Positions 7,339-51,756 of a stretch of DNA of 64,000 nucleotides are shown in pieces (position 1 is the first letter of the stretch; the number at the start of each line of letters is the position of its first letter). The notes under the pieces are model-generated. The model saw only the letters and a list, made by a program, of their open reading frames with translations, ran no database searches and was not told the origin of the DNA. The translations under genes and the position numbers were made by a program. Source of the stretch: Clostridiales bacterium (GTDB taxonomy: Bacteria > Bacillota > Clostridia > Christensenellales > Aristaeellaceae); NCBI GenBank assembly GCA_017569285.1, contig CP069419.1, positions 2,914,001 through 2,978,000 of the forward strand. The letters run 5' to 3'.

Positions 7339-7440
7339 CTATCCGCAATCTCAATGGTCGCAACTCTCCACTGGAGAGCTTGCTCCCTTTCGATTGAACT
7401 CACCTCTGATGAAATTCCCCGCACTGCGGATCATCAGAGG
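7339..7440 (+). repeat. 102-bp double-hairpin element, copy 1
   Basis: The core CAATCTCAATGGTCGC is followed by hairpin A (CTCTCC 7364-7369 / GGAGAG 7373-7378), the segment CTTTCGATTGAACTCA, and hairpin B with a 10-bp outer stem (7403-7412 / 7431-7440) and inner stem CCGC/GCGG. Six other copies occur in the window. Confidence 0.85.
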
Positions 7441-7499
7441 TTCGTCCCATTGTTCCGGAACGCAGTCGTCAGATGTTCGTCCCTTTGTTCCGAACTTGC

Positions 7500-7528
7500 T
7501 TGAATCAGCAACGGAAGAGAAATATAAT
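7500..7528 (+). promoter_or_regulatory. Putative promoter of the first M42 peptidase
   Basis: TTGAAT at 7500 and TATAAT at 7523 are separated by 17 bp. The promoter follows directly after the repeat block. Confidence 0.6.
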
Positions 7529-7569
7529 AAACCTATCCCTGCGGAAACAGTACCACGGAGGAAAAACAG

Positions 7570-8607
7570 ATGAACAAGGAATTCCTATTTGACATGCTGA
7601 GAACGGGTTCCGTCGGCGGGAACGAGGCGGAGCTGGAAAAGAAGATTTATGACTACATGCAGGGCAAGGCCGACACCGTGACGGTGGACGAGCTGGGCAA
7701 TGTGACCGCGGCGGTGAACCCGGAGGCAGACTTCAAGGTGCTGCTGGCCGGGCACGCGGACGAGATCGGCCTGATGGTGACCGCCATCGGGAACGACGGC
7801 ACCCTGATGGTCCGGAAGATCGGCGGGATCTATGTTTCCACCTATCCCGGACACAAGGTACGGGTGTACACGAAGAGCGGCGTGATCTACGGCGCGGTGG
7901 CCAACAGCGAGGATATCTCCAAGAACAAGGACCTGGAGGCTTCCGCACTGCGGATTGACATCGGGGCCAAGGACAAGGAAGACGCGCAGAAGTATGTGGA
8001 GCTGGGCGATACGGTGTCGTTTGACACGGACGTAAGGGAAATGCTGAACGGCTGCATTACAGCCCGGGCCATGGACGACCGGATCGGCGCGTATATCGTG
8101 ATGGAAGCGGTGGCGGAGGCGAAGAAGAAGGGCGCGTCCGTCGGCTGCTGGGCGGTGAGCACCATCGGGGAGGAAACCTGCGGGAGCGGCGCGTATTTCG
8201 CCGCCAGCCGGGTGAAGCCGAACATCGCCATCGCGGTGGATGTGACCTATACATCCGACAACTGCGGCATCAGCGAAGCGGAGACCGGGGACATCTGCGT
8301 GGGGAAGGGCCCGGTGCTGTGCAACAGCCCGGCCATTCACAAAAAGGTGAATGAGTACCTGAAGGACGCCGCGAAGAAGCTGAACATGAAGGTACAGATT
8401 GAAGCGGCGGGAGGAAGAACCGGGACGGACGGGGATACGATGACGAGGACGGGCATCGGCGTGCCGTTTGCGCTGGTGTCGATTCCGCTGAGGTATATGC
8501 ATAATCCGGCGGAGGTTGGGTCGATGAACGACATTCAGGAATGTATTGAGCTGCTGGCTGAGTTTCTTGTCAGCTGCTCCGCTGACATGAATCTGAAGCC
8601 GTTCTGA
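7570..8607 (+). CDS. M42 family metallo-aminopeptidase
   Basis: A 345-residue cytoplasmic di-metal aminopeptidase of family M42 (glutamyl/leucyl aminopeptidase, TET-type dodecamers), which trims peptides from the N-terminus. All expected residues are present: H62 and D64 in AGHADEIG, the bridging D169/D170 in ARAMDDRIG, the catalytic E201/E202 in IGEETCGSG, D224 in VDVT and H311 in YMHNPAEV. Its length is normal for the family. A GGAGG at 7558-7562 supports the start. It is followed by a second, only distantly similar M42 gene, so the pair probably covers different peptide specificities. Several family members were formerly named endoglucanases, which is a known misannotation. Confidence 0.93.
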   Translation: MNKEFLFDMLRTGSVGGNEAELEKKIYDYMQGKADTVTVDELGNVTAAVNPEADFKVLLAGHADEIGLMVTAIGNDGTLMVRKIGGIYVSTYPGHKVRVYTKSGVIYGAVANSEDISKNKDLEASALRIDIGAKDKEDAQKYVELGDTVSFDTDVREMLNGCITARAMDDRIGAYIVMEAVAEAKKKGASVGCWAVSTIGEETCGSGAYFAASRVKPNIAIAVDVTYTSDNCGISEAETGDICVGKGPVLCNSPAIHKKVNEYLKDAAKKLNMKVQIEAAGGRTGTDGDTMTRTGIGVPFALVSIPLRYMHNPAEVGSMNDIQECIELLAEFLVSCSADMNLKPF

Positions 8608-8624
8608 TTCAGGCTTGATTCTGT

Positions 8625-8739
8625 CGGAACAGAGGGGACAGTCCCGTGGTCCCGCTCCAGTTACAGCAAATCGTAGCTCCTGCCTTTATTGAACAATTCT
8701 GTTGCGGAGCGGTACGAGCGGGACAGTCCCCCTGTTCCG
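8625..8739 (+). repeat. GGGAC/GTCCC inverted-repeat element, intact
   Basis: Imperfect inverted arms at 8625-8658 and 8706-8739 (CGGAACAG..GGGGACAGTCCC and GGGACAGTCCCCCTGTTCCG) enclose about 47 bp of unrelated sequence. It is the uninterrupted form of the element at 7238. Confidence 0.8.
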
Positions 8740-8842
8740 AGCATGCTTGCTTCGCTCCATACCCCAATTATGGGGCCACATTAAGCGTTACTGAGCTTAT
8801 ATACCTATGAAATAACAATCCCAGCATTTAAGGAGAAACACC

Positions 8843-9889
8843 ATGAAGAAGAACTGGAAGAAGTATACGGATTTTATTGTGAAGGAAACGGAAGCGGTGC
8901 TGAACATCGACTCGCCGACGGGGTATACGGAAGAGGCGGCGAAGTGGGTGAAGGCGGAATTTGAAAAGCTCGGGTATGAGGCGAAGCTGACCAACAAGGG
9001 CGGCGTGCTGGTGGACCTGGGCGGAAAAGACAAGGAGAACGGCCTGCTGCTGGAAGCCCATGTGGATACGCTGGGCGGCATGGTGGCGGAGGTGAAGGGA
9101 AACGGACGCCTGCGCCTGACTAACCTGGGCGGGATGAACCCCAACAACGCGGAGACGGAGAACGTACGCGTGGTGACGAAGGGAAACGGCATCTACGAGG
9201 GGACCTTCCAGCTGTGCAACGCCTCGATCCATGTGAACGGGGACTACAACGACACGAAGCGGAGCTGGAGCACCTGCGAAGTGGTACTGGACGAGGACGT
9301 GAAGAGCAAAGAGGACACGCTGAAGCTGGGCATCCAGGTGGGGGACATCGTATGCTTTGAGCCGAACGTGCGCGTGACGAAGAGCGGATACATCAAGAGC
9401 CGCTTCCTGGACGACAAGCTGAGCGTCGGCATCCTGCTGGGGCTGGCGAAGTACCTGAAGGACGAGAAGATCGTGCCGGAATGGGCAATCTACGCGCATA
9501 TTACGGTGTATGAAGAAGTGGGCCACGGCGGATCCGGAAGCGTGCCCGCCGGATGCACGGAGGCAATCTCCGTGGACATGGGCTGTGTGGGCGAGGGGCT
9601 GCAGTGCACCGAGCGGCAGGTATCCATCTGCGCAAAGGACAGCCACGGCCCGTACAGCTATCCCGTGGTGACGGGACTGATCGAGGCGGCAAAGCGCAGC
9701 GGCGCAGACTATGCCGTGGACATCTATCCGCACTACGGCAGCGACGTGGAAGCGACGCTGGATGCCGGCGCGGACCTGCGGCACGGGCTGATCGGCGCGG
9801 GGGTGTATGCATCCCATGGGTATGAGCGGAGCCACCGGGACGGCGCGGAGAACACGCTGAAGGTGCTGGCGGAATACATCGGGGCCTGA
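8843..9889 (+). CDS. M42 family metallopeptidase (second paralogue)
   Basis: A 348-residue M42 peptidase with H73 and D75 in EAHVDTLGG, D190/D191 in FLDDKLS, E224/E225 in YEEVGHGGS, D245 in SVDMGC and H325 in ASHGYERSH, so the full di-zinc site is kept. The start has AAGGAG upstream. Its last 39 codons are duplicated as an orphan fragment at 19090-19206, next to a different gene. With the preceding paralogue it suggests active peptide use by the cell. Specificity cannot be read from the sequence. Confidence 0.92.
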   Translation: MKKNWKKYTDFIVKETEAVLNIDSPTGYTEEAAKWVKAEFEKLGYEAKLTNKGGVLVDLGGKDKENGLLLEAHVDTLGGMVAEVKGNGRLRLTNLGGMNPNNAETENVRVVTKGNGIYEGTFQLCNASIHVNGDYNDTKRSWSTCEVVLDEDVKSKEDTLKLGIQVGDIVCFEPNVRVTKSGYIKSRFLDDKLSVGILLGLAKYLKDEKIVPEWAIYAHITVYEEVGHGGSGSVPAGCTEAISVDMGCVGEGLQCTERQVSICAKDSHGPYSYPVVTGLIEAAKRSGADYAVDIYPHYGSDVEATLDAGADLRHGLIGAGVYASHGYERSHRDGAENTLKVLAEYIGA

Positions 9890-9923
9890 TCCCCGGATTG
9901 GGCATATCCAGTGAGAAACTGTG

Positions 9924-9952
9924 TTGGCACAGCGCCGGTACAGTGATATAAT
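9924..9952 (+). promoter_or_regulatory. Putative promoter in the gap before the secreted protein
   Basis: TTGGCA at 9924 and a perfect TATAAT at 9947 are separated by 17 bp. It could serve the small reading frame near 10074 or the secreted protein at 10296. Confidence 0.5.
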
Positions 9953-10073
9953 AGATTAAAGTTGTCTGGTTCTTCACAGCCTTCTGTGGACAGAATGATG
10001 ATCATCATGAAGAAAAAGACGGCTTTTTCGTGATGCAGTTTCGGGGCTTCCGGCCGGGAGGCGGGAGCGGGAC

Positions 10074-10205
10074 GTGATCAAGCGGGAGCACCGCTCGGGA
10101 ATGCATATTTCCTCCTATATCGTCAGCCACATGCTGTACCAGGCGTTCCTGTGCCTGGCGCAGACGGCGGTGACACTGGAGTTTATCGACAAAGACAAAC
10201 GATGA
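10074..10205 (+). CDS. Possible small protein, perhaps frameshifted
   Basis: A GTG codon preceded by a purine-rich GGGAGGCGGGAG tract opens a 43-residue frame ending in a mixed hydrophobic/basic stretch (SYIVSHMLYQAFLCLAQTAV). The frame is actually open from 10011, and a different frame beginning with ATG codons at 9998-10010 ends at 10033, so a longer protein may have been broken by a single indel. No family is recognised. A consensus-like promoter lies upstream at 9924. The rest of 9890-10295 shows nothing else. Confidence 0.25.
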   Translation: MIKREHRSGMHISSYIVSHMLYQAFLCLAQTAVTLEFIDKDKR

Positions 10206-10295
10206 GGCCGCAGGGGGCGGCACGGATTCCGATTGATCCGGGTTTTGTTCCGGTGAGATAAATCAAACTGATCAGACAGAAGGAGGTTTCCTGAA

Positions 10296-11030
10296 ATGAA
10301 AAAACTGCTTGTAGTGGTACTTGCCCTGTGCCTTTTCATTCCCGCGGCGGCGGTAATGGCGGAGGATGACGCGGAGATCAGCTTCTACACGGAAGAGGTT
10401 CCGGAAGCGGCCGCTTACGTCAGCACCTGGGTGGCGGAGGACGGCGACTGGCGCATTGAGTTCTTTGATGAGGACGGCGGGATCAAACTGATGGTGGTCC
10501 ACCGGCTGGGCGACAACCAGGAGGACGTCTGGGAATACGCCGCCGCGCTGAACGAGGAAAAGACCGCGCTGGTTTCCATGCCCCTGGGCCTGCATTACCG
10601 GCAGGATACCGTGACAAACGACTGGGTGGAGAACTACTATGAGGACGGCGACGCCACCTTCACCATCAACGAGGCCGGGAAGCTCCTGTGGAGCGACGCG
10701 AAGGAAGACGCCGGGAAGGGCCTGGAGTTCCTGAAGATCGGCAACTTCTACGGCGGACGCTGGATGAAGGGGGATACGGAGGTCATCTTCTACGACTGGT
10801 ATGAAGGGCAGTACGATATCCGCCTGTACCAGCGGGGAGCGGACGGCGCGATCCTGAAGGACGCCATTCTGAAGGGCGACTATGACCCGGAGACGGACAG
10901 CATTGCCGCCGAGGGAACCTTCGGCGAGGACAGCGTCGCCATCACGTTCTCCTATGACGAGCAGAGGAACGTCGTATGGACGGAGAACGGGGAAAGCATC
11001 GTGCTGGAATACAGCTACCTGACCGACTGA
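10296..11030 (+). CDS. Secreted acidic protein of unknown function
   Basis: The 244-residue product has a clear Sec signal peptide (KK, then a hydrophobic run LLVVVLALCLFIPAAAV, cleavage probably after AVMA). The mature part is very acidic and rich in Trp, Tyr and short beta-prone repeats such as DWRIEFFDEDGG, IFYDWYEGQYDIRLY and YDPETDSIAAEG, suggesting an all-beta fold. No catalytic motif is recognised. A strong AGAAGGAGG ribosome site precedes the start. A terminator-like hairpin follows at 11066, so it is probably monocistronic. It could be a cell-surface or ligand-binding protein; no more can be said. Confidence 0.6.
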   Translation: MKKLLVVVLALCLFIPAAAVMAEDDAEISFYTEEVPEAAAYVSTWVAEDGDWRIEFFDEDGGIKLMVVHRLGDNQEDVWEYAAALNEEKTALVSMPLGLHYRQDTVTNDWVENYYEDGDATFTINEAGKLLWSDAKEDAGKGLEFLKIGNFYGGRWMKGDTEVIFYDWYEGQYDIRLYQRGADGAILKDAILKGDYDPETDSIAAEGTFGEDSVAITFSYDEQRNVVWTENGESIVLEYSYLTD

Positions 11031-11065
11031 CCGGTCGGCGGTAAGGGAAAAAGATCCCGGAAGGA

Positions 11066-11096
11066 AGAAAAGCCATGGCGCGGCCACGGCTTTTCT
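11066..11096 (+). terminator. Rho-independent terminator
   Basis: AGAAAAGCC at 11066 pairs with GGCTTTTCT ending at 11096; an inner TGG/CCA extends the stem. The T-run is inside the 3' arm. Confidence 0.6.
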
Positions 11097-11099
11097 GAC

Positions 11100-11126
11100 G
11101 TGACAAAGGGACAGCCCTGCTGTCAC
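11100..11126 (+). repeat. REP hairpin, single left half
   Basis: A 27-nt unit (GTGACA..AGGGACAGCCCT..TGTCAC) with one change from the consensus. Its inverted partner is missing. Confidence 0.8.
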
Positions 11127-11151
11127 ATTTTCCCAAGGAACGGCAGGGACA

Positions 11152-11312
11152 CTATCCGCAATCTCAATGGTCGCAACTCTCTACAAGAGAGCAAGGATTC
11201 GCACACGCACCGCGGAGCCGTAGTCACGGCTCTCGCGCACCGCGCGCGGCAGCGCTCCCTTTCGATTGAACTCACATCTGACGAGATTCCCCGCACTGCG
11301 GGTCGTCAGATG
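11152..11312 (+). repeat. 102-bp double-hairpin element, copy 2 (with insertion)
   Basis: The same core as copy 1, with hairpin A as CTCTCT/AGAGAG and hairpin B outer stem CATCTGACGA/TCGTCAGATG. About 57 bp with its own hairpin (GAGCCG..CGGCTC) is inserted after hairpin A. It is flanked by GGAAC..GGGACA at 11137-11151 and GTCCCTTTGTTCC from 11316. Confidence 0.82.
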
Positions 11313-11398
11313 TTCGTCCCTTTGTTCCGGAACGGAGCTGATTCGTCCCTTTGTTCCTAGTCTGAACGGAGGGACGGTATTGGTTCAGACTTGAGTGG

Positions 11399-11517
11399 TC
11401 CGGAACGTCAGGGACGGTTCTGGTAGTTCGATCCGGATGAAATGATTTCAGGTTGAAACAACTGCCAACAGGCTGAAAACGCGGATCGAACGAGCAAAAC
11501 CGTCCCTTTATTCCGGA
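11399..11517 (+). repeat. Nested inverted repeat with GGGACGG core
   Basis: Outer arms TCCGGAAC..GGGACGGTT (11399-11419) and AACCGTCCC..TTCCGGA (11498-11517) enclose inner arms TTCGATCCG and CGGATCGAA. The whole stretch 11097-11572 is repeats and holds no gene. Confidence 0.75.
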
Positions 11518-11572
11518 ACGGAGTTGATTCGTCCTTTTGTTCCGGAATGCAGGAAGTCAGGAGGGATATGAT

Positions 11573-12490
11573 ATGGAAATCATGCTGATTCTTGTGCGGC
11601 AGATCCTGCAGATGTTCCTGCTGAGCGGGCTGGGATTTGCGCTGTACAGGGGAAAGAAGATTACCGCGGAGGGCAGCAAAGCCCTGGGGAATATCCTGAT
11701 TTACCTGGCGCTGCCCGCGGTGATTATCAACAGCTTCCTGGTGGAGAGAACGGCAGAGCACCTGTACGGAATCCTGTACAGCGCCGGTGCGGCGGCAGTG
11801 ATCCTGCTGGTTTCCATCCTGATTTCGAGGGCTTTTTTCAAAAAAGATCCGATCGCGGCTTTTGCCGGGGCTTTTTCCAATCCCGGCTTTTTCGGCGTTC
11901 CGCTGATTATCGCGTCTGTGGGGCAGGGAGCGGTTTTCTATGTGGCGTGCTTTATCGCGTTCCTGAATATCGGGCAGTGGACATACGGCGTTTCCGTGCT
12001 GAACGGACAGCCGGTGCTCCAGGGCTTCCAGCCGAAGAAGCTGATCCGCGCGCCGTTCATGATCGCGATCATCATCGGGCTGATCCTGTTCCTGACGCAG
12101 ATTCCGCTGCCTGCCGTGGTGACGGGCTGCCTGTCCACGGTTGCTTCGCTGAACACGCCGCTGGCCATGTTTACGATCGGGATCTACCTGGCCCAGACCG
12201 ATATCGGAAAGATGATCCGGAAGCTTTCCCTGTACAAAATTGCCACGGTGCGGCTGCTGCTGATTCCGGCAGCGTCCATCCTGCTGCTGAGCCTGCTGCC
12301 CAAAGAGATGCTGGATATGAAGATGGCCCTGCTGCTGGCCGCCGCGTGCCCGGTGGGTTCCAATGTGGCCGTGTATGCACAGCTGCACGGGAAGGACTAT
12401 GCCTACGCGGTGGAAACGGTGGTGATTTCCACGCTGCTTGCCGTTGTGACCATTCCGGCTGCCGCGTGGATTGCCCGGATGATCTGGTAA
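11573..12490 (+). CDS. AEC family transporter (auxin efflux carrier fold)
   Basis: A 305-residue integral membrane protein of the AEC/BASS-like superfamily, which exports organic acids or amino-acid-like solutes. About ten hydrophobic segments are visible, beginning IMLILVRQILQMFLLSGLGFAL. The duplicated five-helix units and the SNPGFFGVPL-like motif (GAFSNPGFFGVPLI) and ACPVGSNVAVYA segment are typical. The start at 11573 is chosen because AGGAGGGATATGAT lies just upstream; longer in-frame starts run into the repeat block. Substrate is unknown. A 25-bp palindrome follows the stop. Confidence 0.88.
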   Translation: MEIMLILVRQILQMFLLSGLGFALYRGKKITAEGSKALGNILIYLALPAVIINSFLVERTAEHLYGILYSAGAAAVILLVSILISRAFFKKDPIAAFAGAFSNPGFFGVPLIIASVGQGAVFYVACFIAFLNIGQWTYGVSVLNGQPVLQGFQPKKLIRAPFMIAIIIGLILFLTQIPLPAVVTGCLSTVASLNTPLAMFTIGIYLAQTDIGKMIRKLSLYKIATVRLLLIPAASILLLSLLPKEMLDMKMALLLAAACPVGSNVAVYAQLHGKDYAYAVETVVISTLLAVVTIPAAAWIARMIW

Positions 12491-12492
12491 CA

Positions 12493-12517
12493 ACAACTGC
12501 AAACCGTTTGCAGTTGT
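12493..12517. promoter_or_regulatory. 25-bp palindrome, candidate LacI-type operator
   Basis: ACAACTGCAAA and TTTGCAGTTGT are perfect inverted arms around CCG. The TGCAAA..TTTGCA core resembles LacI-family operators that control sugar ABC transporters. No T-run follows, so it is a poor terminator. It lies upstream of the sugar-binding protein gene. Confidence 0.5.
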
Positions 12518-12542
12518 CCGATTTACAACAAACAAATTTTAC

Positions 12543-12571
12543 TTGAATTATAACCTGATATGTGTTACATT
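12543..12571 (+). promoter_or_regulatory. Putative promoter of the sugar ABC operon
   Basis: TTGAAT at 12543 and TACATT at 12566 are spaced 17 bp. A second weaker option is TTCTTG with TACAAT further downstream. Confidence 0.35.
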
Positions 12572-19527: not shown

Positions 19528-19629
19528 CTATCCGCAATCTCAATGGTCGCAACTCTCTACAAGAGAGATTGCTCCCTTTCGATTGAACTCACATCTGACG
19601 AGATTCCCCGCACTGCGGGTCGTCAGATG
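19528..19629 (+). repeat. 102-bp double-hairpin element, copy 3
   Basis: Hairpin A is CTCTCT/AGAGAG with loop ACA and hairpin B outer stem CATCTGACGA/TCGTCAGATG around CCCGCACTGCGGG. Exactly the same length as copy 1. It ends 38 bp before the SH3-protein start codon, within its 5' leader region. Confidence 0.85.
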
Positions 19630-19667
19630 TTCGTCCCTCAGATCCCTCAAAACAGGAGGTACCCGAA

Positions 19668-21086: not shown

Positions 21087-21095
21087 CATTGGAAG

Positions 21096-21160
21096 GTGAC
21101 AAAGGGACAGCCCTACTGTCACATTGAGAGAATGTGACAGTAGGGCTGTCCCTTTGTCAC
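21096..21160. repeat. 65-bp inverted REP pair, left flank of RAYT
   Basis: Perfect 27-nt arms (21096-21122, 21134-21160) flank an 11-nt loop ATTGAGAGAAT. It lies 9 bp after the SH3-protein stop and could also serve as its terminator. Confidence 0.92.
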
Positions 21161-21237
21161 ATCCACCTACAAAAGTTTTTTGTTCGCCTTGAGTTATGGA
21201 CACTGACCGCCTATACTGAAAACAGGAGGTGCAGTGC

Positions 21238-21990
21238 ATGCCAAGAACAGCGAGAACAATCAGCGCAAGCGGCTATTATCACATTATCGCCCGCGGGATC
21301 GGCAAGCAGATTCTGTTTGAGGAAGATGAAGACTACCTGTTTTTCCTTAGGCTGATGAAAAACTATTCATCATCCGGCGAATTCAGTGTGACTGCTTTCT
21401 GCCTGATGGAAAACCATGTCCATATCCTGGCGAAAATTGCTGATGGAATGATGGACAAAGTCATGCACAACCTTCTGGCGACATACGCAACTTATTATAA
21501 TAAGAAATATGACAGGATCGGACATCTGTACCAGGACAGGTACAGAAGCAAACCGATTGAAAATGACATGTACCTGCTGACGGCAGTGCGATATATCCAT
21601 AACAACCCTGCCAAAGCAGGAATATGTCCGCCGGATCAGTATCGCTGGAGCAGCTGGAGATGCTATTCCGGTGATATCAGGAGCTTTGTTGATACAACCT
21701 ATGCACTACAGCTGTTTGGCGGTAAAGAAGGCTTCCTGAAGCACAGCTCCATGGAAGCCCAGGACGAAGAGGACGACGGGTATTTTGAATTCGAAAGGAC
21801 CCGGTTATCAGACAATACTGCCAGATCGGTTATGCGTGATGTGCTGCATCTCGAAACCGGAACGCAGATTCAGGGTATGGACAGGGTAAACCGGGATTTA
21901 TCCCTCCGGACTCTGAGGGACAACGGTTTATCCATCCGGCAGATTGAAAGGCTGACCGGAATACCCAGATCGATCATTATGCGCGTGTGA
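21238..21990 (+). CDS. REP-associated tyrosine transposase (RAYT, Y1 family)
   Basis: A 250-residue single-strand transposase of the IS200/IS605 Y1 superfamily, RAYT branch. The HUH motif is H60-V-H62 in LMENHVHILAKI, the GYYHIIARG N-terminal motif and GHLYQDRYRSKPIE are typical, and the probable catalytic tyrosine is Y119 in VRYIHNNPAKAG. The start at 21238 has AGGAGG 7 bp upstream; the upstream GTG at 21229 overlaps the ribosome site. The C-terminal SLRTLRDNGLSIRQIERLTG helix-turn-helix-like tail resembles domesticated members. No second IS605-type gene is present. RAYTs cut and rejoin REP hairpins in vitro in enterobacteria; activity here is inferred. Confidence 0.9.
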   Translation: MPRTARTISASGYYHIIARGIGKQILFEEDEDYLFFLRLMKNYSSSGEFSVTAFCLMENHVHILAKIADGMMDKVMHNLLATYATYYNKKYDRIGHLYQDRYRSKPIENDMYLLTAVRYIHNNPAKAGICPPDQYRWSSWRCYSGDIRSFVDTTYALQLFGGKEGFLKHSSMEAQDEEDDGYFEFERTRLSDNTARSVMRDVLHLETGTQIQGMDRVNRDLSLRTLRDNGLSIRQIERLTGIPRSIIMRV

Positions 21991-21995
21991 TGAAA

Positions 21996-22060
21996 CAGAC
22001 AAAAGGACAGCCCTACCGGCACGTTCTGAAAACGTGACAGTAGGGCTGTCCCTTTGTCAC
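21996..22060. repeat. 65-bp inverted REP pair, right flank of RAYT
   Basis: The right arm (22034-22060) is perfect, while the left arm (21996-22022) has four or five changes, including CGGCAC for TGTCAC. It ends 1 bp before the stop codon of the convergent ABC permease. Confidence 0.88.
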
Positions 22061-22061
22061 A

Positions 22062-40813: not shown

Positions 40814-42334
40814 ATGAAGAAGAGTACAGTGGTTATCGCCCTGCTGGCGGTGCTGGCAATCGTTTTCGGTATCCTTTTCATCACCGGAAACAACGAGAAG
40901 AATGACCTGCAGGCCAAAGTGGATGAGCTGAACACGGTTGTGAAGTCCGCAGCCGACCAGGGCAAGATTGACCTGGACAGCGCGGTTGCCGCCGCGAAGC
41001 AGGAAGCGGAAGAAGCCACCAACAAGGCTGTTGAAGACGCCCTGGCTGCTGCCAAGGTAGACGCGGATGCCGCGACCACCAAGGCTGTGGAAGACGCCGT
41101 TGCCAACGCGAAGGCTGAAGCGGACAAGGCCCTGGCTGATGTGAAGGCTGAAGGCGAGAAGGCCCTGGCCGACGCGAAGGAAGCCGGTGAAAAGGCCCTG
41201 GCTGAAGCGCAGGAAGCCGGCGAAAAGGCCCTGGCTGAAGCGCAGGAAGCCCTGGCCAATGCCAAGGCTGAAGGCGAAAAGGCCCTGGCCGACGCGAAGG
41301 CTGCCGGCGAAAAGGCCGTGGAAGATGCCAAAGCTGAAGGCGAGAAGGCCCTGAAGGCGGTCCAGGATGAACTGGAAACCTGGAAGACCAAGGCCGGCGA
41401 CCTGGAAAAGCAGATTGCCGACGCCGCGGCTGCTGCTACCGAAAAGGTGGAAGAAGTCAAGGAAGCTGTAACCGATAAGACTGAAGAAGTGAAAGACGCT
41501 GCCACCGAGAAGGTTGAGGAAGTCAAGGAAGCGGCCGAAGAAGTAAAGGAAACCGCGACCGAAGCCGTCGAGGAAGCAACCGAGACCGTCGAGGAAAAGG
41601 TTGAAGAAGCTGCCGAGGCTGTAGAGGAAAAGGTTGAAGAGGCGGTCGAAACTGCGGAAGAAGCCGTGGGAGAAATCGCTGTGATGGACCATGCGGCGTA
41701 TGTTGCTGCCGAGCTGGACACCGAAGTGGTGATCGAGACGACCGTTCAGGCAACGCAGGCCTGGTGGGAAAAGGACGGCGTCGGCAAGATCACCGTTTAC
41801 GGCCAGAGCGAAGACGGCGCTTACTTCATCTATGAGATGAACTGCTCCAAGGAAGATGCTGAGAAGCTGGTTCCCGGTGCGAAGATCAAGGTGAAGGGCT
41901 TCAAGAGCGCGTGGAGCGGCGAAGTGGAAATCACCGACGCGACATTCGAATTCGTGGAAGGTGAAGGCTTCAAGGCCGAGCCGGAAGACGTGACCGCGCT
42001 GCTGGGGACGGAAGAACTGATCAACAAGCAGAACGCGCTGGTGGCGTTCAAGGGCCTGACGGTTGCGGCGAAGAAGGATGCGGAAGGCAATGACGCGGCG
42101 TTCCTGTACAAGTGGAACGGCGCCGGACAACAGGGCGACGACCTGTACTTCGACGTGACGGTGAATGACGCGACCTATACGTTCGTGGTGGAATCCTACC
42201 TGTGCGGGCAGGACACCGAAGTGTACAAGGCGGTTGAAGGCCTGAAGGTTGGCGACGTGATCGACGCGGAAGGCTTCCTGTACTGGTACGAAGGCGTACA
42301 GCCCCACATCATTAAGGTGGCTGCCGCCCAGTAA
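40814..42334 (+). CDS. Hendecad coiled-coil surface protein with OB-like C-terminal domains
   Basis: A 506-residue exported protein with an N-terminal signal/anchor (KSTVVIALLAVLAIVFGILF). Residues about 50-270 are almost wholly Ala, Glu, Lys and Asp, built from 11-residue repeats such as ADAKEAGEKAL and AEAQEAGEKAL, then a 7/11-residue EVKEAATEKVE region. Such repeats form right-handed coiled coils or LEA-like helices. The C-terminal 220 residues contain two similar beta modules (ITVYGQSEDGAYFIYEMNCS and LYFDVTVNDATYTFVVESYL) that look like OB-fold domains. A strong AGGAGGAACTC ribosome site and a terminator bound it. The role is probably a periplasmic-space or wall spacer. Confidence 0.75.
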   Translation: MKKSTVVIALLAVLAIVFGILFITGNNEKNDLQAKVDELNTVVKSAADQGKIDLDSAVAAAKQEAEEATNKAVEDALAAAKVDADAATTKAVEDAVANAKAEADKALADVKAEGEKALADAKEAGEKALAEAQEAGEKALAEAQEALANAKAEGEKALADAKAAGEKAVEDAKAEGEKALKAVQDELETWKTKAGDLEKQIADAAAAATEKVEEVKEAVTDKTEEVKDAATEKVEEVKEAAEEVKETATEAVEEATETVEEKVEEAAEAVEEKVEEAVETAEEAVGEIAVMDHAAYVAAELDTEVVIETTVQATQAWWEKDGVGKITVYGQSEDGAYFIYEMNCSKEDAEKLVPGAKIKVKGFKSAWSGEVEITDATFEFVEGEGFKAEPEDVTALLGTEELINKQNALVAFKGLTVAAKKDAEGNDAAFLYKWNGAGQQGDDLYFDVTVNDATYTFVVESYLCGQDTEVYKAVEGLKVGDVIDAEGFLYWYEGVQPHIIKVAAAQ

Positions 42335-42353
42335 TCCCCAGAAGGCAATTCAT

Positions 42354-42385
42354 TCCGGCGGAGGAAACTCCGCCGGATTTTTTTC
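42354..42385 (+). terminator. Strong rho-independent terminator
   Basis: TCCGGCGGAG/CTCCGCCGGA with a GAAA tetraloop and a T8 tail. Confidence 0.92.
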
Positions 42386-42395
42386 CTTTTTGTGC

Positions 42396-42424
42396 TTGAC
42401 TTTTCCGGACGTGTCCTGTATTAT
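42396..42424 (+). promoter_or_regulatory. tRNA operon promoter
   Basis: TTGACT at 42396 and TATTAT at 42419 with 17-bp spacing, 32 bp before the first tRNA. Confidence 0.75.
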
Positions 42425-42455
42425 ATCCCTTGCCGCTTGAAAAGGCGGACAGTGA

Positions 42456-42531
42456 CGCGGGGTGGAGCAGCTGGCAGCTCGTCGGGCTCATAACCCGGAG
42501 GTCGGAGGTTCAAATCCTTCCCCCGCAACCA
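42456..42531 (+). tRNA. Initiator tRNA-fMet (CAT)
   Basis: The acceptor stem has the initiator hallmark C1 x A72 mismatch, and the anticodon stem has three consecutive GGG/CCC pairs around loop CTCATAA (anticodon 42489-42491). The CCA end is encoded (42529-42531). Confidence 0.95.
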
Positions 42532-42534
42532 CAT

Positions 42535-42608
42535 GGCTCAATAGCTCAGTTGGCTAGAGCATTCGGTTCATACCCGGAGTGTCATAGGTTCGAGTCCTAT
42601 TTGAGCCA
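42535..42608 (+). tRNA. Elongator tRNA-Met (CAT)
   Basis: GGCTCAA/TTGAGCC acceptor stem, anticodon loop TTCATAC and T-arm ATAGG-TTCGAGT-CCTAT fold as a normal tRNA with CAT anticodon. CCA is not encoded (discriminator A is followed by CAT). The GGTTCATACC context fits elongator Met rather than tRNA-Ile2. Its last 26 nt are copied at 42809. Confidence 0.92.
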
Positions 42609-42610
42609 CA

Positions 42611-42647
42611 TAAGAAAACCGGATCCCTTGAGGATCCGGTTTTCTTA
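42611..42647 (+). terminator. tRNA operon terminator
   Basis: A perfect 16-bp stem (TAAGAAAACCGGATCC and its complement) with loop CTTGA, with the T-run inside the 3' arm. Confidence 0.85.
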
Positions 42648-42703
42648 TGTAATTCGATAAGGACTTGATCCTATGGCACGGAGGATCTGGAAGATCCGGA
42701 GTG

Positions 42704-42805
42704 GAAGAAATTTGATGACCGCCAGTGGCGGAAATTTCATCAAATTTCTTCTCAACCGAAAAGGAGCGGCCTCTCCAGTGGAGAGCCGCGACTATTGAGG
42801 TTGCG
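42704..42805 (-). repeat. 102-bp double-hairpin element, copy 4
   Basis: On the minus strand it reads like copies 1-3. Hairpin B has a perfect 15-bp outer stem (42704-42718 / 42737-42751) of different sequence and the inner CCGCC-AGT-GGCGG hairpin; hairpin A is CTCTCC/GGAGAG. It lies between the tRNA terminator and a copied tRNA 3' end. Confidence 0.88.
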
Positions 42806-42808
42806 CAC

Positions 42809-42836
42809 CATAGGTTCGAGTCCTATTTGAGCCACA
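42809..42836 (+). repeat. Duplicated 3' end of tRNA-Met
   Basis: 28 bp are identical to 42583-42610 (T-arm, acceptor 3' strand and ACA). Confidence 0.93.
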
Positions 42837-42873
42837 CAGAAAAAACAGACCCCTCGAGGGTCTGTTTTTTCTG
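42837..42873 (+). terminator. Second tRNA-type terminator after the duplicated tRNA end
   Basis: A perfect 16-bp stem begins at the base after the tRNA 3' copy, as in the first unit, but with a different stem sequence (CAGAAAAAACAGACCC) and loop CTCGA. Confidence 0.8.
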
Positions 42874-42910
42874 TATGCCCCAAACGGACCTCGAACCTAG
42901 GGCACGGAGG

Positions 42911-43013
42911 GAACCCATTTGATGACCGCCGGTGGCGGGAATTTCATCAAATGGGTTCTCACCTGAAAAGGAGCGATCTCCACGGTTGTGGAGTCGCGAC
43001 TATTGAAGGTGCG
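42911..43013 (-). repeat. 102-bp double-hairpin element, copy 5
   Basis: Hairpin B has another perfect 15-bp outer stem (42911-42925 / 42944-42958, GAACCCATTTGATGA) and inner CCGCC-GGT-GGCGG. Hairpin A is CTCCAC/GTGGAG. Confidence 0.87.
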
Positions 43014-43060
43014 GAATCTGGAAGATCCGGAGTGAACCGGATCCCGCCGCGCCAGTGGAC

Positions 43061-43160
43061 GAACCTCTGACGACCGCCAGTGGCGGAAATTTCGTCAGAG
43101 GTGAGTTCAACCGAAACAAGCGATCTCCACGGGTGTGGAGTCGCGCAGATTGAGGTTGCG
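43061..43160 (-). repeat. 102-bp double-hairpin element, copy 6
   Basis: Hairpin B outer stem is ACCTCTGACGA/TCGTCAGAGGT (43063-43073 / 43092-43102), with inner CCGCC-AGT-GGCGG. Hairpin A is CTCCAC/GTGGAG. Confidence 0.85.
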
Positions 43161-43236
43161 GGGCGGGAGGAGGTTCAATGAGCAAAGGCTTCCGGCAAGC
43201 GAAGAGCGAAGCCGAAAGCCTATTGCGAATTGTGAC

Positions 43237-43251
43237 CATAGGTTCGAGTCC
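43237..43251 (+). repeat. Third tRNA-Met T-arm fragment
   Basis: CATAGGTTCGAGTCC is identical to the first 15 nt of the two larger copies, then sequence diverges (GTGCGGGGAATGGGCC). Confidence 0.7.
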
Positions 43252-43379
43252 GTGCGGGGAATGGGCCAGAGCTAAATGAAGAGAAATAATTCCATTGTAC
43301 GCTTCAACCCGGAGAATTCCGTTCCGGGACACGGCTCGCGCCTGTATTCCGCACGCAGCAGATTCTAAGCTCTGTCAAC

Positions 43380-43500
43380 CGTTCGCTCAATGGTCGCCTG
43401 AAACCCTTGGAGCGGGTTTCATTCTCCCTTTCGCGCTAACAAATTCGAGTCGCTTGCCTTTGGCACTCCCCACTGGGGAGACGCTTCTCTCGTTTGCGCC
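43380..43500 (+). repeat. Longer relative of the double-hairpin element (L1)
   Basis: GTTCGCTCAATGGTCGC is followed by a stem TGAAACCC/GGGTTTCA around the loop TTGGAGC, then TTTCGCGCTAACAAATTCGAG, then CTCCCC-ACT-GGGGAG and CTTCTCTCGTTTGCG. Two relatives lie at 58299 and 58510. Confidence 0.75.
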
Positions 43501-43584
43501 TACGCTCGCCAATCGCTAAGAACTGGCGTGCTCCATAACGTCCCGGGACGAAACACCCCGGGTTTTCGCTTGCGGCAACCGACA

Positions 43585-43701
43585 TGGAACGAAAAAGACC
43601 GTCCCTCCATTCCATATATTATGTGAATAATCCATGTTGCCGTCAAGAAGGTAGAATGGATTCAAAAATCGAACGAAAGGAACCGTCCCTGCGTTCGATT
43701 T
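43585..43701. repeat. Two short palindromes with CCGTCCCT cores
   Basis: TGGAACG..CCGTCCCT..ATTCCA (43585-43614) and AAATCGAACG..CCGTCCCT..CGTTCGATTT (43666-43701) keep the core and change both arms together. The whole stretch 42648-43777 is non-coding repeat mosaic. Confidence 0.7.
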
Positions 43702-43777
43702 ACCTGAAAAAGATTTTTCCGTTACCTCAAATATGACCCATCCCATTCCGTCTATATTTATGGAGGAGGTGAAGCGC

Positions 43778-44299
43778 GTGACTGGAATCCAGGGCCCGGA
43801 TTCTACGAACAGGGAACGCCTGACCGAGCTGGTGCGCCGGTATGAAAAGGATATCCTGCGGATATGCTACGTGTACCTGCGGGATACGGAACAGGCCAAA
43901 GACGCGGTGCAGGAAACGTTCCTGAAAGCTTACCTCCACATGAACCAGCTGAAGGATGACAGCAAGGCAAAGAGCTGGCTGGCGCGGATCGCGGTGAATG
44001 TATGCCGGGACGTGCTGCGCAGCCCGTGGATGATCCATACCGACCGCCGGGTGCAGCCGGAGGACGTGCGCCGGACGGCGGAAGCGCCGGATGAGGCGCG
44101 GGGCGGCCTGGGCGAGGCAGTGATGAACCTGCCGGTGAAACTGCGGGAAGCGGTTACGCTGCGGTATGTATACGGGTTTGACATCCATGAGACGGCCGGG
44201 ATTCTCGGCATCACTCCTTCAGCGGTATCCAGGCGATGCGGGGAAGCCCGTGTCCGACTGAAAGACGAACTGGAAGGGAGCACAGACGGCGATGAATGA
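43778..44299 (+). CDS. ECF-type RNA polymerase sigma factor
   Basis: A 173-residue group 4 sigma factor. Region 2 is RLTELVRRYEKDILRICYVY, then LRDTEQAKDAVQETFLKAY. Region 4 is LPVKLREAVTLRYVYGFDIH with the HTH AGILGITPSAVSRRCGEARV. The GTG start at 43778 is preferred because GGAGGAGGT lies 8 bp upstream; earlier in-frame ATGs at 43733 and 43760 lack or overlap that site. It overlaps the next gene, which carries a short anti-sigma-like cytoplasmic segment, by 8 bp. It probably responds to envelope stress. Confidence 0.92.
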   Translation: MTGIQGPDSTNRERLTELVRRYEKDILRICYVYLRDTEQAKDAVQETFLKAYLHMNQLKDDSKAKSWLARIAVNVCRDVLRSPWMIHTDRRVQPEDVRRTAEAPDEARGGLGEAVMNLPVKLREAVTLRYVYGFDIHETAGILGITPSAVSRRCGEARVRLKDELEGSTDGDE

Positions 44300-48192: not shown

Positions 48193-48639
48193 ATGGATAA
48201 ATGGGATCAGCGGTTTATGGACATGGCGTTTACCATTGCCGGCTGGAGCAGCTGTTTCCGCGCGGGGCGGAGCATCGGCTGCGTGATCGTGAAGGATAAA
48301 CGGATTATGACCACCGGGTACAACGGCGCGCCCGCGGGCATCAAAACCTGCCGCGAGAAGGGCGAGTGCCTGCGGGACAAGCTGGGGATTCCCAGCGGTA
48401 CCCGGATGGAAACCTGCTACGCGGTGCATGCGGAGCAGAACGCGATTGTGCAGGCGGCCAAGCTGGGCGTGTCCATAGACGGGGCGACCCTGTACTGCAC
48501 CCACCAGCCCTGCTCGATGTGCTGCAAGATGATCATCAACAGCGGCATCAACCGCGTGGTGTACAAGGAAGGATATCCGGACGCGTTTACGCTGGAGCTG
48601 TTTGCCGAGGCGGGCGTGAAGGTTGAAAAATTCGAATAA
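48193..48639 (+). CDS. dCMP deaminase
   Basis: A 148-residue zinc deaminase of the ComEB/dCMP deaminase family that converts dCMP to dUMP for thymidylate synthesis. The zinc site is H79-A-E81 in YAVHAEQNAI and C107/C110 in QPCSMCCKM. The N-terminal WDQRFMDMAFTIAGWSSCFR and the SIGCVIVKDKRI strand are typical. It is followed by the DUF6062 gene after 18 bp, probably in the same transcript. Confidence 0.92.
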   Translation: MDKWDQRFMDMAFTIAGWSSCFRAGRSIGCVIVKDKRIMTTGYNGAPAGIKTCREKGECLRDKLGIPSGTRMETCYAVHAEQNAIVQAAKLGVSIDGATLYCTHQPCSMCCKMIINSGINRVVYKEGYPDAFTLELFAEAGVKVEKFE

Positions 48640-48657
48640 GGCCAAAGGAACGAGCGA

Positions 48658-49431
48658 ATGAAGTATCATATTGACACAATCCCGGTATGGGACGCGATGA
48701 AACGGGACGGGGAGTGCCTGCTGTGCGCCCTGGAACGGAAGACGGAACTGGGCGAGGCGGAGCGCTACCTGGGCGCCTCCGTGATGGAGCCTGATATCCG
48801 GGTTCAGGTGAACAAGAAGGGATTCTGCCGGAAGCACCACGGGATGCTGTTCGGCATGAGCAACCGGCTGGGCCACGCGCTGATGCTGGAAAGCCACACG
48901 ATTGAGACGCGGGAACGGATGGCAGCGACCTTCGCAAAGCTGAACAGCGCGGCGGAGCAGCTGCAGAACGTGAGCGCGATCGGCAAGCTGGGCGGGAAGG
49001 CCCGCGGGGCGGAAACCATCGTGATGGAGCAGGCGGCAGCGCTGCACGAGATGGCGGACAGCTGCCTGATGTGCGAGACGATTGAAGAGAACATGAACCG
49101 GTACCTGCACACCTTCTTCCACCTGTATAAGAACGATACGGATTTCCGCAACCGCTTCCAGAACAGCAAGGGCGTGTGCCTGCCGCACAGCGCACGGCTG
49201 CTGGAGACGGCCATCGGGGAGCTGAGCTCCCGCGAGCTGGCGGATTTCATCAAAGTGCTGACCAAGCTGCAGACGGAGAACATGGACCGGATGCAGGAGG
49301 ATATTTCCTGGTTTATCAAAAAGTTTGACTACCGCTATGAGAAGGAAAGCTGGGGGAACAGCAAGGACGCGGTGGAACGGACCGTGAACAAGCTGCGCGG
49401 CTGGTCCGTCGGCAAGGAACCGAACGAGTAG
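48658..49431 (+). CDS. DUF6062 family protein
   Basis: A 257-residue, largely helical cytoplasmic protein. Conserved cysteine/histidine pairs (CLLCALERK near residue 21, FCRKHHGML near 59, CLMCETIEE near 136, CLPHSARLL) suggest a metal- or thiol-binding role, and match DUF6062 members that accompany hydrogenase or nucleotide genes in Clostridia. Function is unknown. Ribosome site AAAGGAACGAG precedes the start. Confidence 0.75.
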   Translation: MKYHIDTIPVWDAMKRDGECLLCALERKTELGEAERYLGASVMEPDIRVQVNKKGFCRKHHGMLFGMSNRLGHALMLESHTIETRERMAATFAKLNSAAEQLQNVSAIGKLGGKARGAETIVMEQAAALHEMADSCLMCETIEENMNRYLHTFFHLYKNDTDFRNRFQNSKGVCLPHSARLLETAIGELSSRELADFIKVLTKLQTENMDRMQEDISWFIKKFDYRYEKESWGNSKDAVERTVNKLRGWSVGKEPNE

Positions 49432-49447
49432 AAAGAGGGAAAGCGGC

Positions 49448-49822
49448 ATGATGACCATTCGGGAAGTCGTGAAAATTGTATCCGGCGAGGTACTCGTCGG
49501 GGAGGACCGGCTGGACGAGCGTGTGGACACGGCGTGCGGCTCCGACCTGATGAGCGACGTGCTTGCGTTTGTGAAGGAAAAGACGGTGCTGATTACCGGG
49601 CTGATCAATCCCCACGTGGTGCGGACCAGCGAAATGCTGGACATCACGTGCATTGTGTTCAGCCGGGGCAAGAAGCCCAGCGAGGAGATCCTGGACATGG
49701 CGGAGGAGGTCGGCATTACGGTGATATCCAGCCCGCTGACCACCTACACGGCCTGCGGCGAACTGTATACCCACGGTCTGCCCGGCACCAAGCCGAAGCA
49801 GAAACCCGCAGAGGAGGTGTAA
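49448..49822 (+). CDS. DRTGG domain protein
   Basis: A 124-residue single-domain protein of the DRTGG family (residues 1-110, MTIREVVKIVSGEVLVGEDR). These domains, also present in HPr kinase and phosphotransacetylases, probably bind ligands and act as regulators. It is the first of a run of regulatory genes placed before the hydrogenase subunits, and a related shorter DRTGG-like gene lies at 51956. Overlapping signals link it to the next gene, only 5 bp away. Confidence 0.82.
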   Translation: MMTIREVVKIVSGEVLVGEDRLDERVDTACGSDLMSDVLAFVKEKTVLITGLINPHVVRTSEMLDITCIVFSRGKKPSEEILDMAEEVGITVISSPLTTYTACGELYTHGLPGTKPKQKPAEEV

Positions 49823-49827
49823 GCGCG

Positions 49828-50256
49828 ATGGCGGTCATTCTGGAAAAGAACTTTCCGGTGGAGGCCGGTGCGTTTACCACGGCCGGCGAGGCGTCGACCA
49901 CGATCAAGCGGACACTGAAGCAGCTGGGCATCAGCGCGGAGGTGCTGCGGCATGTGTCGGTGGCGTGCTACGAGGTGGAGCTGAACCTGGTGATCCACAG
50001 CCTGGGCGGAACGCTGACCCTGCTGGTGGACCCGGACAACGTGACGCTGATTTCGAAGGACGTGGGCCCGGGAATCCCGGATATTGAGCAGGCGATGACG
50101 GAGGGCTTCTCCACGGCGAGCGCGGAGGCCCGGACACTGGGATTCGGCGCCGGCATGGGACTGCCGAACATGAAGCGGAACGCGACGGAATTCGACATCC
50201 AGAGCGAAGTGGGGGTTGGGACGACGATCACGATGAAGTTCGCGATTGCGACTTAA
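49828..50256 (+). CDS. RsbW-like ATP-binding protein (HATPase)
   Basis: A 142-residue GHKL ATPase of the anti-sigma/serine kinase type. The N box is ACYEVELNLVIHS, the G1 box is DVGPGIPD and the G2 region is FGAGMGLPNMKR. Without other domains it resembles RsbW or SpoIIAB and may phosphorylate a partner. A second, larger HATPase is encoded at 53681. Homologues recur with DRTGG and hydrogenase genes in Clostridia, where they are thought to regulate, but the target is unknown. Confidence 0.85.
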   Translation: MAVILEKNFPVEAGAFTTAGEASTTIKRTLKQLGISAEVLRHVSVACYEVELNLVIHSLGGTLTLLVDPDNVTLISKDVGPGIPDIEQAMTEGFSTASAEARTLGFGAGMGLPNMKRNATEFDIQSEVGVGTTITMKFAIAT

Positions 50257-50331
50257 TCCAGGCTTGCCTGTTATTTACCGATTGCAGAACGAGTGTTGAA
50301 GATATCTAACTGATGGAGGAAGCGGTTCATC

Positions 50332-51627
50332 ATGGAACAGAAGCGATTCCACTCGGTGCGGCTGGAAGGCGACAAGTGCAGGGGATGCACGAACTGCCTG
50401 AAGCGCTGCCCGACGGAGGCGATCCGGGTCCGCGGGGGACGCGCGCACATCATCGATGAGCGCTGCATCGACTGCGGTGAATGCATCCGGGTGTGCGGAT
50501 ACCACGCGAAGGTCGCGGTGACGGACCCGCTGAGCGCGATCAGCCGGTTCAAATACAAGATTGCGCTGCCGGCTCCCAGCCTGTACGGCCAGTTCGCCAG
50601 CCTGAAAAGCATCTCCCAGGTGCTGAACGGGCTGAAGCAGATGGGCTTTGACGATGTGTTCGAGGTAGCCCGGGGCGCCGATGTGGTGAGCCGCGCCATC
50701 CGGGAACGGCTGAAGAACCCCGACATCCCGCGGCCGGTGATTTCATCCGCCTGCCCGGCGATTGTACGGCTGATCCAGGTACGTTTCCCGGACCTGCTGG
50801 ACCATATTGTGGACGTGCGCCAGCCGATGGAGGTTGCCGCGATGATCGCGCGGCAGGAGTTCGTGCGGAAGAACGGCGTGAAGCCTGAAGAAGTGGGCTG
50901 CTTCTTTATCACCCCGTGCCCGGCCAAGGTGACGGCCATCAGGAACCCGATCGGGCATGACACGAGCGCGGTGGACGGCGCGATCTCCGTGCTGGAGATC
51001 TACGGGCTGCTGTCGAGCCAGATCCGGAATGCACCGGTGGACCTTACGCTGGAACAGGCGTCGGACCTGGGCGTCGGCTGGGCCCGGAGCGGCGGCGAAT
51101 GCTATGCCGTGATGCCGGAGAACTCGATGGCGGTGGACGGCATCGAGAACTGCATCCGCGTGCTGGAGGAAATTGAGGATAACCGGCTGAAGGGCCTGGA
51201 ATTCTTTGAGGGCGCGGCGTGCACCGGCGGGTGCGTCGGCGGACCATTGAACTTTGAGAACAACTATGTGGCGCGGGCCGGAATCGGGCGGCTGAGCACC
51301 CGGGATCCGAACGCGGACCTGAACGTGGACAGCGGCATGATGACGAAGTACAAGCTGTACGACGACAGGCGGATTATGCCGAACTCCGCGATGAAGCTGG
51401 ACGATGACCTGATGGAAGCGGCCCGGAAGATGGAGCAGATTGAGAAGATCTACAAGGAGCTGCCGGGGTTTGACTGCGGCAGCTGCGGAAGCCCCACATG
51501 CCGGACGTTTGCGGAGGATATTGTGCAGGGGGATGCAACGAAGATGGATTGCATCCATAAGATGAAAGAACAATTGCGCGTTATGGCGCAGCAGATGGTG
51601 GATCTGGCGCAGACCACAAGAGAATAG
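50332..51627 (+). CDS. HsfB-like sensory [FeFe]-hydrogenase domain protein
   Basis: A 431-residue iron-sulfur protein. The N-terminus has a 2[4Fe-4S] ferredoxin (CRGCTNCLKRCPTEAI; CIDCGECIRVC). The middle is an [FeFe]-hydrogenase H-cluster domain with altered motifs: SSACPAIVR, ITPCPAKVT and AACTGGCVGG instead of the catalytic TSCCP/MPC/ECGG-type motifs. The C-terminus carries a Fe4-type cluster motif CGSCGSPTCRTFAEDIV. This matches HsfB-type sensory or regulatory hydrogenases rather than a catalytic HydA, and it is encoded among regulators just upstream of hydCBA. It probably senses H2 or redox state. Confidence 0.85.
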   Translation: MEQKRFHSVRLEGDKCRGCTNCLKRCPTEAIRVRGGRAHIIDERCIDCGECIRVCGYHAKVAVTDPLSAISRFKYKIALPAPSLYGQFASLKSISQVLNGLKQMGFDDVFEVARGADVVSRAIRERLKNPDIPRPVISSACPAIVRLIQVRFPDLLDHIVDVRQPMEVAAMIARQEFVRKNGVKPEEVGCFFITPCPAKVTAIRNPIGHDTSAVDGAISVLEIYGLLSSQIRNAPVDLTLEQASDLGVGWARSGGECYAVMPENSMAVDGIENCIRVLEEIEDNRLKGLEFFEGAACTGGCVGGPLNFENNYVARAGIGRLSTRDPNADLNVDSGMMTKYKLYDDRRIMPNSAMKLDDDLMEAARKMEQIEKIYKELPGFDCGSCGSPTCRTFAEDIVQGDATKMDCIHKMKEQLRVMAQQMVDLAQTTRE

Positions 51628-51655
51628 TTTGATCTATGCGGCTTTCAGGTCGCAC

Positions 51656-51756
51656 CGCAGCCTCAATCGTCGCGACTCCGCACTGCGGAGATCGCTCGTT
51701 TCGGCTGAGACTGCCGCCGACGAGACTTCCGCCACTGGCGGTCGTCGCCGGCAGTC
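51656..51756 (+). repeat. 102-bp double-hairpin element, copy 7
   Basis: GC-rich version: hairpin A is CTCCGC/GCGGAG with loop ACT, hairpin B has a 15-bp outer stem with one mismatch (51709-51723 / 51742-51756) and inner CGCC-ACT-GGCG. It is the most diverged copy, yet all stems are kept. The rest of 51628-51955 shows no gene; it includes a second GCACGGAGA-rich segment of no clear type. Confidence 0.8.

Follow-up and report, generated by a model that had tools for sequence, protein, structure and literature searches.

A 64,000-nucleotide stretch of the chromosome of a Clostridiales bacterium of the family Aristaeellaceae (contig CP069419.1, positions 2,914,001 to 2,978,000; G000:C1:2914001-2978000 from a genome of 3.27 Mb in two contigs), referred to here as the window, contained seven copies of a double-hairpin element. 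We interpret these copies as members of a family of non-autonomous, structure-recognised mobile DNA elements of ~105 bp, a reading to which we assign a probability of roughly 0.6. All seven had been proposed in a preliminary description of the sequence (starting there at 7339, 11152, 19528 and 51656 and, on the minus strand, at 42704, 42911 and 43061), and all were recovered by a covariance model, R1. Intact copies lay on the plus strand at 7342-7447 (115.5 bits; fold z -4.95), 19531-19636 (118.2 bits, with hairpin A at 19535-19585 and hairpin B at 19591-19630 in the predicted fold) and 51654-51758 (111.9 bits), and on the minus strand at 42909-43015 (111.3 bits; fold z -8.14), 43057-43162 (108.6 bits; fold z -5.59) and 42702-42807 (114 bits), the last adjoining the remnant of a tRNA 3' end. 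The copy at 11155-11319 (plus strand, 80.3 bits) was 165 bp long because it carries an insert of ~59 extra bp, palindromic in part, 3' of the hairpin A tip; this insert had been noted before, whereas the 100-103 bp previously given for the other six copies were extended to 105-107 bp by R1.

The consensus of the 25 copies of this genome reads TCCG-CAACC-TCAAT-n-G-TC-GCAA-CTCCCC-ACT-GGGGAG-bulge-TCGC-TCC..TTTC-GGTTG-A-spacer for the hairpin A part, followed by outer stem B-AAATT-CCGCC-ACT-GGCGG-outer stem B-TTCGCCC for hairpin B. The stem changes on both sides that had been quoted for hairpins A and B were present in the copies, but the extent of hairpin A had been underestimated, one larger structure having gone unrecognised. 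Hairpin A comprises three stacked stems, running from an outer stem through an internal loop, a middle stem and a 1-nt bulge to the tip stem, and the two additional stems covary as well: the outer stem CAACC/GGTTG also occurs as CAATC/GATTG, CAAAC/GTTTG, CATCC/GGATG, CAAGC/GCTTG and CAGCC/GGCTG, and the middle stem GCAA/TTGC as GCGA/TCGC, GTGA/TCAC and GCGG/CCGC. Hairpin B has an outer stem of at least 11 bp, a 5-nt one-sided bulge, an inner 5-bp stem and an ACT-type triloop. The predicted folds of the six intact window copies had this shape or nearly so (z -4.85 to -8.14), and for none of them was any of 200 shuffled sequences as stable. Several sequences outside the stems were conserved at 90% or more (TCAAT and TTTC in the internal loop, AC in the triloops), and the 3' end was CCC or TCC in 110 of 125 copies. 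A second subfamily has a different outer stem (GCCAATA/TATTGGC and similar) with the architecture unchanged.

Covariation in these stems is far beyond chance. Across the 25 copies, 99.0% of 825 stem cells paired, compared with 78.6% in shuffles, and pairing fell to 30.5-44.6% when the 3' partners were slid by one to three columns. Both sides were altered in 26 of 33 pairs (shuffles 15.0), 162 cells were double-changed (43.2) and the covariation score was 0.569 (0.175); none of 500 shuffles matched any of these four measures. The number of further pair types stood out less, at 47 compared with 42.1 in shuffles, 22 of the 500 reaching it. In an alignment of 25 rows that included the second subfamily, again no shuffle of 500 reached the double-changed count; the second subfamily shares the covariation in the stems common to both. 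The claim that pairing is maintained through paired changes also held in a larger alignment of 58 representatives below 85% identity, where 1,776 of 1,857 cells were Watson-Crick and 381 were double-changed, against a mean of 92 and a maximum of 113 in 300 shuffles, none of which reached the observed value. In stem B, 76 distinct 5' arms were found among 124 copies, with perfect pairing in 81 of them. These shuffle tests take no account of the tree, and the larger set leans towards paired copies because it was gathered and aligned by covariance model: alignments A2-A4 were fitted to the model structure, and the rows of A3 were collected with a search pattern in which part of the core is fixed.

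Whether pairing matters in RNA or in single-stranded DNA had been left open, and the mismatches in the stems favour DNA. An RNA stem accommodates G.U much more readily than A.C. We counted mismatches in 124 distinct sequences of 98-112 nt drawn from 178 matches in A2-A4, a set in which decayed copies are under-represented because duplicates and truncated or inserted copies were dropped. Their 4,035 stem cells included 36 G.T, 25 A.C and 56 other mismatches. Pair 7 alone held 16 of the 36 G.T cells and was left out of the main comparison, leaving 20 G.T and 25 A.C in 3,911 cells, compared with 16 G.T and 4 A.C in 255 pairs of 15 tRNA genes from the fetched loci and the window (Fisher p 0.014). 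G.T thus made up 0.5-0.9% of stem cells against 6.3% in tRNAs, a 7- to 12-fold deficit, and roughly equalled A.C in frequency. The constraint on pairing therefore probably acts on DNA and not on RNA; hairpins maintained in DNA, or arms that correct each other, fit these counts better than an RNA constraint does.

Mobility of the element, which the preliminary description had not recognised, is indicated by carrier repeats seen both with and without it at matching sites, by its patchy presence between species, by tandem arrays and by copies on viral contigs. Three carriers could be compared: empty GYTGT[TACCC]AAATC (L044, L142, L145) with filled GTTGTAT-element-(C)AAATC (L158, L161, L162), empty GCACT[GCTCG or GCTCT]CTTGGAGC (L024, L145) with filled GCACTT-element-CTTGGAGC (L031), and empty GCTCTC[GCTCC or GCTTC]GTTCC (L095, L097, L114) with filled GCTCTCTT-element-GTTCC (L086). 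At these few sites hairpins A and B were present or absent together. A YCC target motif would fit TACCC, GCTCC and the permease sites described below; it is not claimed here, as the empty sites that correspond to L031 and L160 (GCTCG, GCTCT, GCGCT) do not fit. Copies were also nested inside other repeats, and tandem arrays had a spacing near 102-106 bp (L013, L022, L087 and G060:C7:106127-106537) or of 91 bp (L243). For the copy at 51654-51758, R1 found no element at the matching intergenic spot in the 20 relatives fetched, nor in the closest one, G015 (L117; 96% identical on one side). Four relatives (L121, L129, L130, L137) have at this spot a small gene flanked by short A+T-rich repeats, encoding in L130 a 23S rRNA-intervening-sequence/four-helix-bundle protein, and so harbour another mobile-looking unit in the same place. 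A flank search with 6273-12560 returned no useful empty sites.

Copies recurred at stop codons and beside tRNA-like sequences. Of 125 distinct copies, 13 had their 3' end on the stop codon that closes an ABC-permease-like gene, whose product ends in GAVKG or similar, and two had it on that of a gene whose product ends in IEWE. One gene of each kind was identified, an ABC permease (PF00528, followed by a PF01547 gene) in L010 and a GMP synthase in L025, the identity of the others being inferred from their C-termini. At the locus between the permease and solute-binding-protein genes, a broader model, R2, matched 7 of 20 fetched relatives (one weakly, at 39 bits) and not the remaining 13; copies were also present there in G000, G020 and G023, and several of the hairpins at this locus belong to the second subfamily. 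A motif resembling a tRNA T-arm lay within the 40 nt immediately to the left of six copies (window 42702, L018 twice, L049, L084 and L098), its tRNA nature being read by eye except in the window copy. There, a tRNA-Met 3'-end remnant at 42809-42837 (plus strand) adjoins the element 42702-42807 on its 5' side; the remnant and the intact tRNA at 42535-42609 share direct repeat D16. The surrounding region, 42456-43265, holds two intact tRNA-Met genes followed by tRNA 3'-end-like remnants interleaved with three elements; by visual inspection, such remnants lie near 42809 and 43238, and one that is degenerate and inverted lies near 42883.

The search of the genome and its relatives with R1 matched 45 of 45 genomes of the genus, with 1-42 matches per genome and 602 in sum. 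The collection searches scored only 87 (genus), 10 (class) or 9 (order) candidates per genome under strict filters, so that counts are lower bounds and absences hold at that sensitivity. Among 391 genomes of the class, a sample that held one other genome of the family, R1 matched only the genome of the window itself. R2 matched 11 of 396 genomes of the order, seven of this genus and four in three other genera of the family (E 7e-7 to 5e-4), and none outside the family. In two of these genera (g239 and g244) the handle TCCGCAACCTCAATCGTCG...GTTTCGGTTGA was kept in multi-copy repeats of which the remainder was quite different; in the third (g243) it was not kept. A scan of named genomes for the core pattern returned 45 stretches, all from Clostridia or a Clostridiales bacterium and many from gut samples of goat, sheep, roe deer or water buffalo. 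The core pattern was also found on six viral contigs, three of which (L245, L247, L248) carried clear elements and encoded tail, endolysin/baseplate or integrase genes, the other three being weak. On L248, adjacent genes of the integrase/DNA-invertase families (PHROG 95 and 125) lie at 1919-4686, ~0.8 kb from an element copy. A blastn search of plasmid and phage records with one copy gave no match, and a viral search with one neighbouring protein found nothing.

As a mobile DNA element, each copy would fold its hairpins when DNA is single-stranded or extruded, and a host or phage enzyme would read them by loops, bulges and shape; TnpA-REP, IntI and the IS200/IS605 transposases are described as recognising folded single-stranded DNA by its loops, bulges and mismatches (PMC8266576). 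If only foldable copies were copied, pairing would be renewed at each jump by selection on the replicator, and resident copies would decay slowly between jumps; templating from arm to arm, or exchange between copies, may help to create the paired changes. A phage-borne or host recombinase is a possible mobiliser.

Several observations weigh against this interpretation. The unpaired columns were not clearly better conserved than the paired ones (mean entropy 0.66 and 0.75 in A2, 0.69 and 0.66 in A3). Copy pairs differing at three stem pairs had 168 double against 30 other differences (the pairs are not independent), but among those differing at a single stem pair only 8 changes were paired and 15 of 23 were not, and in four copy pairs that share both flanks 4 of 7 stem differences were one-sided, the remaining three being double and neighbours within one hairpin tip. 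The youngest differences are therefore often unpaired, and whole-tip block changes occur. With pair 7 kept, G.T exceeds A.C (36 against 25), and the tRNA control is small at 15 tRNAs. Matched empty sites were few and the independent insertion events fewer, since several filled carriers share one ancestral insertion; at these sites ~2-5 target bases were replaced with no clean target duplication. Neither a mobilising gene nor an excision product or fresh insertion was observed. There was also no overall replication strand bias (37 of 85 copies among the matches listed, p 0.28, with the terminus assumed opposite dnaA), which a Y1-type mechanism acting on single-stranded DNA would predict. Among the matches listed for each of the four genomes (20/35, 3/13, 9/18 and 5/19; p 0.50, 0.09, 1.0 and 0.06), two lean to one strand and the sum does not.

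The most serious competitor, though an unlikely one, is that the paired changes are mechanical, produced by template switching, mismatch correction between arms or exchange of hairpin tips, without selection for folding. Homogenisation of inverted-repeat arms by template switching is described in the available portions of PMC8604942 and PMC6649704, and it would account for the commonness of paired transversion swaps (C-G to A-T, C-G to G-C) alongside few G.T cells. Two sister-species copies (L144 and L164) differed at three neighbouring pairs of the A tip, altered on both arms, and at only one other stem pair. However, unrestricted correction would erase the internal loop, the 1-nt bulge and the 5-nt one-sided bulge, all of which stay unpaired, and the four flank-sharing pairs retain their four one-sided changes. 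A mechanical process would also explain pairing and not spread.

A structured RNA, either a small RNA or an element stabilising mRNA, with pairing selected in the transcript, is a less probable explanation again. The copies ending on stop codons (13 and 2 of 125) would suit such an RNA, those of the first kind being placed, at the locus examined, between the genes for the permease and the solute-binding protein; so would the apparently orthologous copies kept in diverged species (L099, L150). Against it stand the rarity of G.T in the stems and its parity with A.C, the patchy presence between species and the nesting of copies in other repeats. Nor is the element an intrinsic terminator, in which a T tract follows the GC hairpin: of 125 copies, only 7 had a TTTT in the 12 nt beyond their 3' end.

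Y1 transposases were the first suspects for moving a DNA hairpin, because TnpA-REP, IS200/IS605 transposases and integron integrases act on folded single-stranded DNA (PMC8266576). Of the 45 congeneric genomes, 28 had Y1 genes, and the window contains one at 21229-21990 (PF01797). A REPIN-like family moved by a host Y1 enzyme, whether RAYT or IS200-type, nevertheless appears about as improbable as a structured RNA. An element lay near only one of 30 fetched Y1 loci (up to ~1.5 kb on each side; more Y1 matches exist), and three genomes with elements had no Y1 match: G045 (32 element matches, 83% complete), G048 (20, 89%) and G012 (8, 93%). The Y1 gene of the single adjoining locus is a 155-aa open frame, presumably IS200-type by its length. 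The window gene is flanked by a different repeat, with the nearest element ~1.6 kb away; this repeat, GTGACAGTAGGGCTGTCCCTTTGTCAC, occurs on both sides of the gene at 21091-22061 in a RAYT-like arrangement, and related copies lie elsewhere in the window. Spread through RNA that a reverse transcriptase copies back, a route suggested for the anatomically similar double-hairpin elements of Allomyces mitochondria (PMC2800124), would be consistent with the missing target duplication but is very improbable: PF00078 went unmatched in 8 of the 12 genomes searched, among them the near-complete G000, G041, G023 and G002 with 33-42 element matches.

Beyond a mobile DNA family as such, we suggest tentatively, and with more doubt than confidence, a new kind of bacterial mobile DNA in which shape and a few unpaired bases are recognised and the stems drift freely among Watson-Crick pairs. 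Such an element may be spread across the family by enzymes of a class other than Y1 transposases and reverse transcriptases, perhaps brought in by phages, and may land beside hairpins, tRNA T-arms and stop codons. Should the mobiliser be identified, it may prove to be a DNA enzyme that reads structure and makes little demand on stem sequence. The 602 matches in 45 genomes form a natural data set of DNA hairpins evolving by paired changes, from which the contributions of selection on folding, of templating between arms and of copy-to-copy exchange can be separated, and they illustrate that strong covariation by itself does not imply a functional RNA.

The window contained further repeats. An array at 2384-4043, with repeat GTCGCCTCCCGCACGGGAGGCGCGGATTGAAAT (one repeat family of 24 copies, spaced mostly 65-69 bp apart), resembles a clustered regularly interspaced short palindromic repeat (CRISPR) array and looks like type I-C. 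A link to the element was considered because this repeat, reversed, shares TCAATC..GCGC..CTCC with the element core, and was dropped when R2 gave no match at 2384-4043 with E up to 1. Hairpin repeats of a further dispersed family (TTTCGCGCTAACAAACTCGAGTCGC..CTCCCCACTGGGGAG..) lie at 43429-43497, 58347-58415 and 58536-58584, and weak R2 matches (E ~0.1) near two of these places hint at a distant relation. A 33-bp tandem repeat at 41060-41398 lies within the open reading frame 40814-42334, the translation of which weakly matched an apolipoprotein model, below cut-off.

The preliminary description knew of no named element of this form. No Rfam family reached its gathering score on an element; in the window only two tRNAs did so, and searches of 42000-44000 and four loci with E up to 1 gave sub-threshold matches, mostly to microRNA families. 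A literature search that missed most subscription journals found no such element described for a bacterial chromosome. Integron attC sites, whose recognition depends on their fold, likewise have freely varying stems and occur in arrays, but they keep core AAC/GTT triplets. Here, in contrast, AAC/GTT triplets are not invariant, each of the four Watson-Crick types being found at pairs 3 and 4 of the outer stem. The element also differs from classical DDE miniature inverted-repeat transposable elements in having no terminal inverted repeats, its ends TCCGC and CCC not being inverted repeats of each other, and no clean target duplication at the few matched empty sites.

Repetitive extragenic palindromes (REPs) tagged with GTAG or CGTC are alike in that their hairpins often lie downstream of coding regions, and those with CGTC also in lacking a dedicated transposase (PMC3733652); they are 20-40 bp palindromes with a tetranucleotide tag, whereas the present unit has two hairpins in ~105 bp. 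The nearest systems by anatomy and behaviour are REPINs and mitochondrial double-hairpin elements. REPINs are likewise short, extragenic, non-autonomous palindromic units, with compensatory changes common in the hairpin spacer (PMC3116915, in part). In the element described here, by contrast, the two hairpins differ in sequence and shape and follow each other in direct orientation, where a REPIN is one REP doubled in inverted orientation, and copies do not flank Y1 genes (1 of 30 loci); with neither the inverted doublet nor a flanking cognate Y1 gene, it does not belong to the REPIN/RAYT system. The double-hairpin elements of chytrid fungal and fission yeast mitochondria are, as far as the available text of PMC2800124 and PMC10085805 describes them, also short, GC-rich double hairpins, mostly intergenic, that differ in copy number between close species and, in Allomyces, have no flanking duplications. 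This likeness is one of description; unlike them, the present elements reside on a bacterial chromosome, have up to 42 matches per genome and keep conserved core loops.

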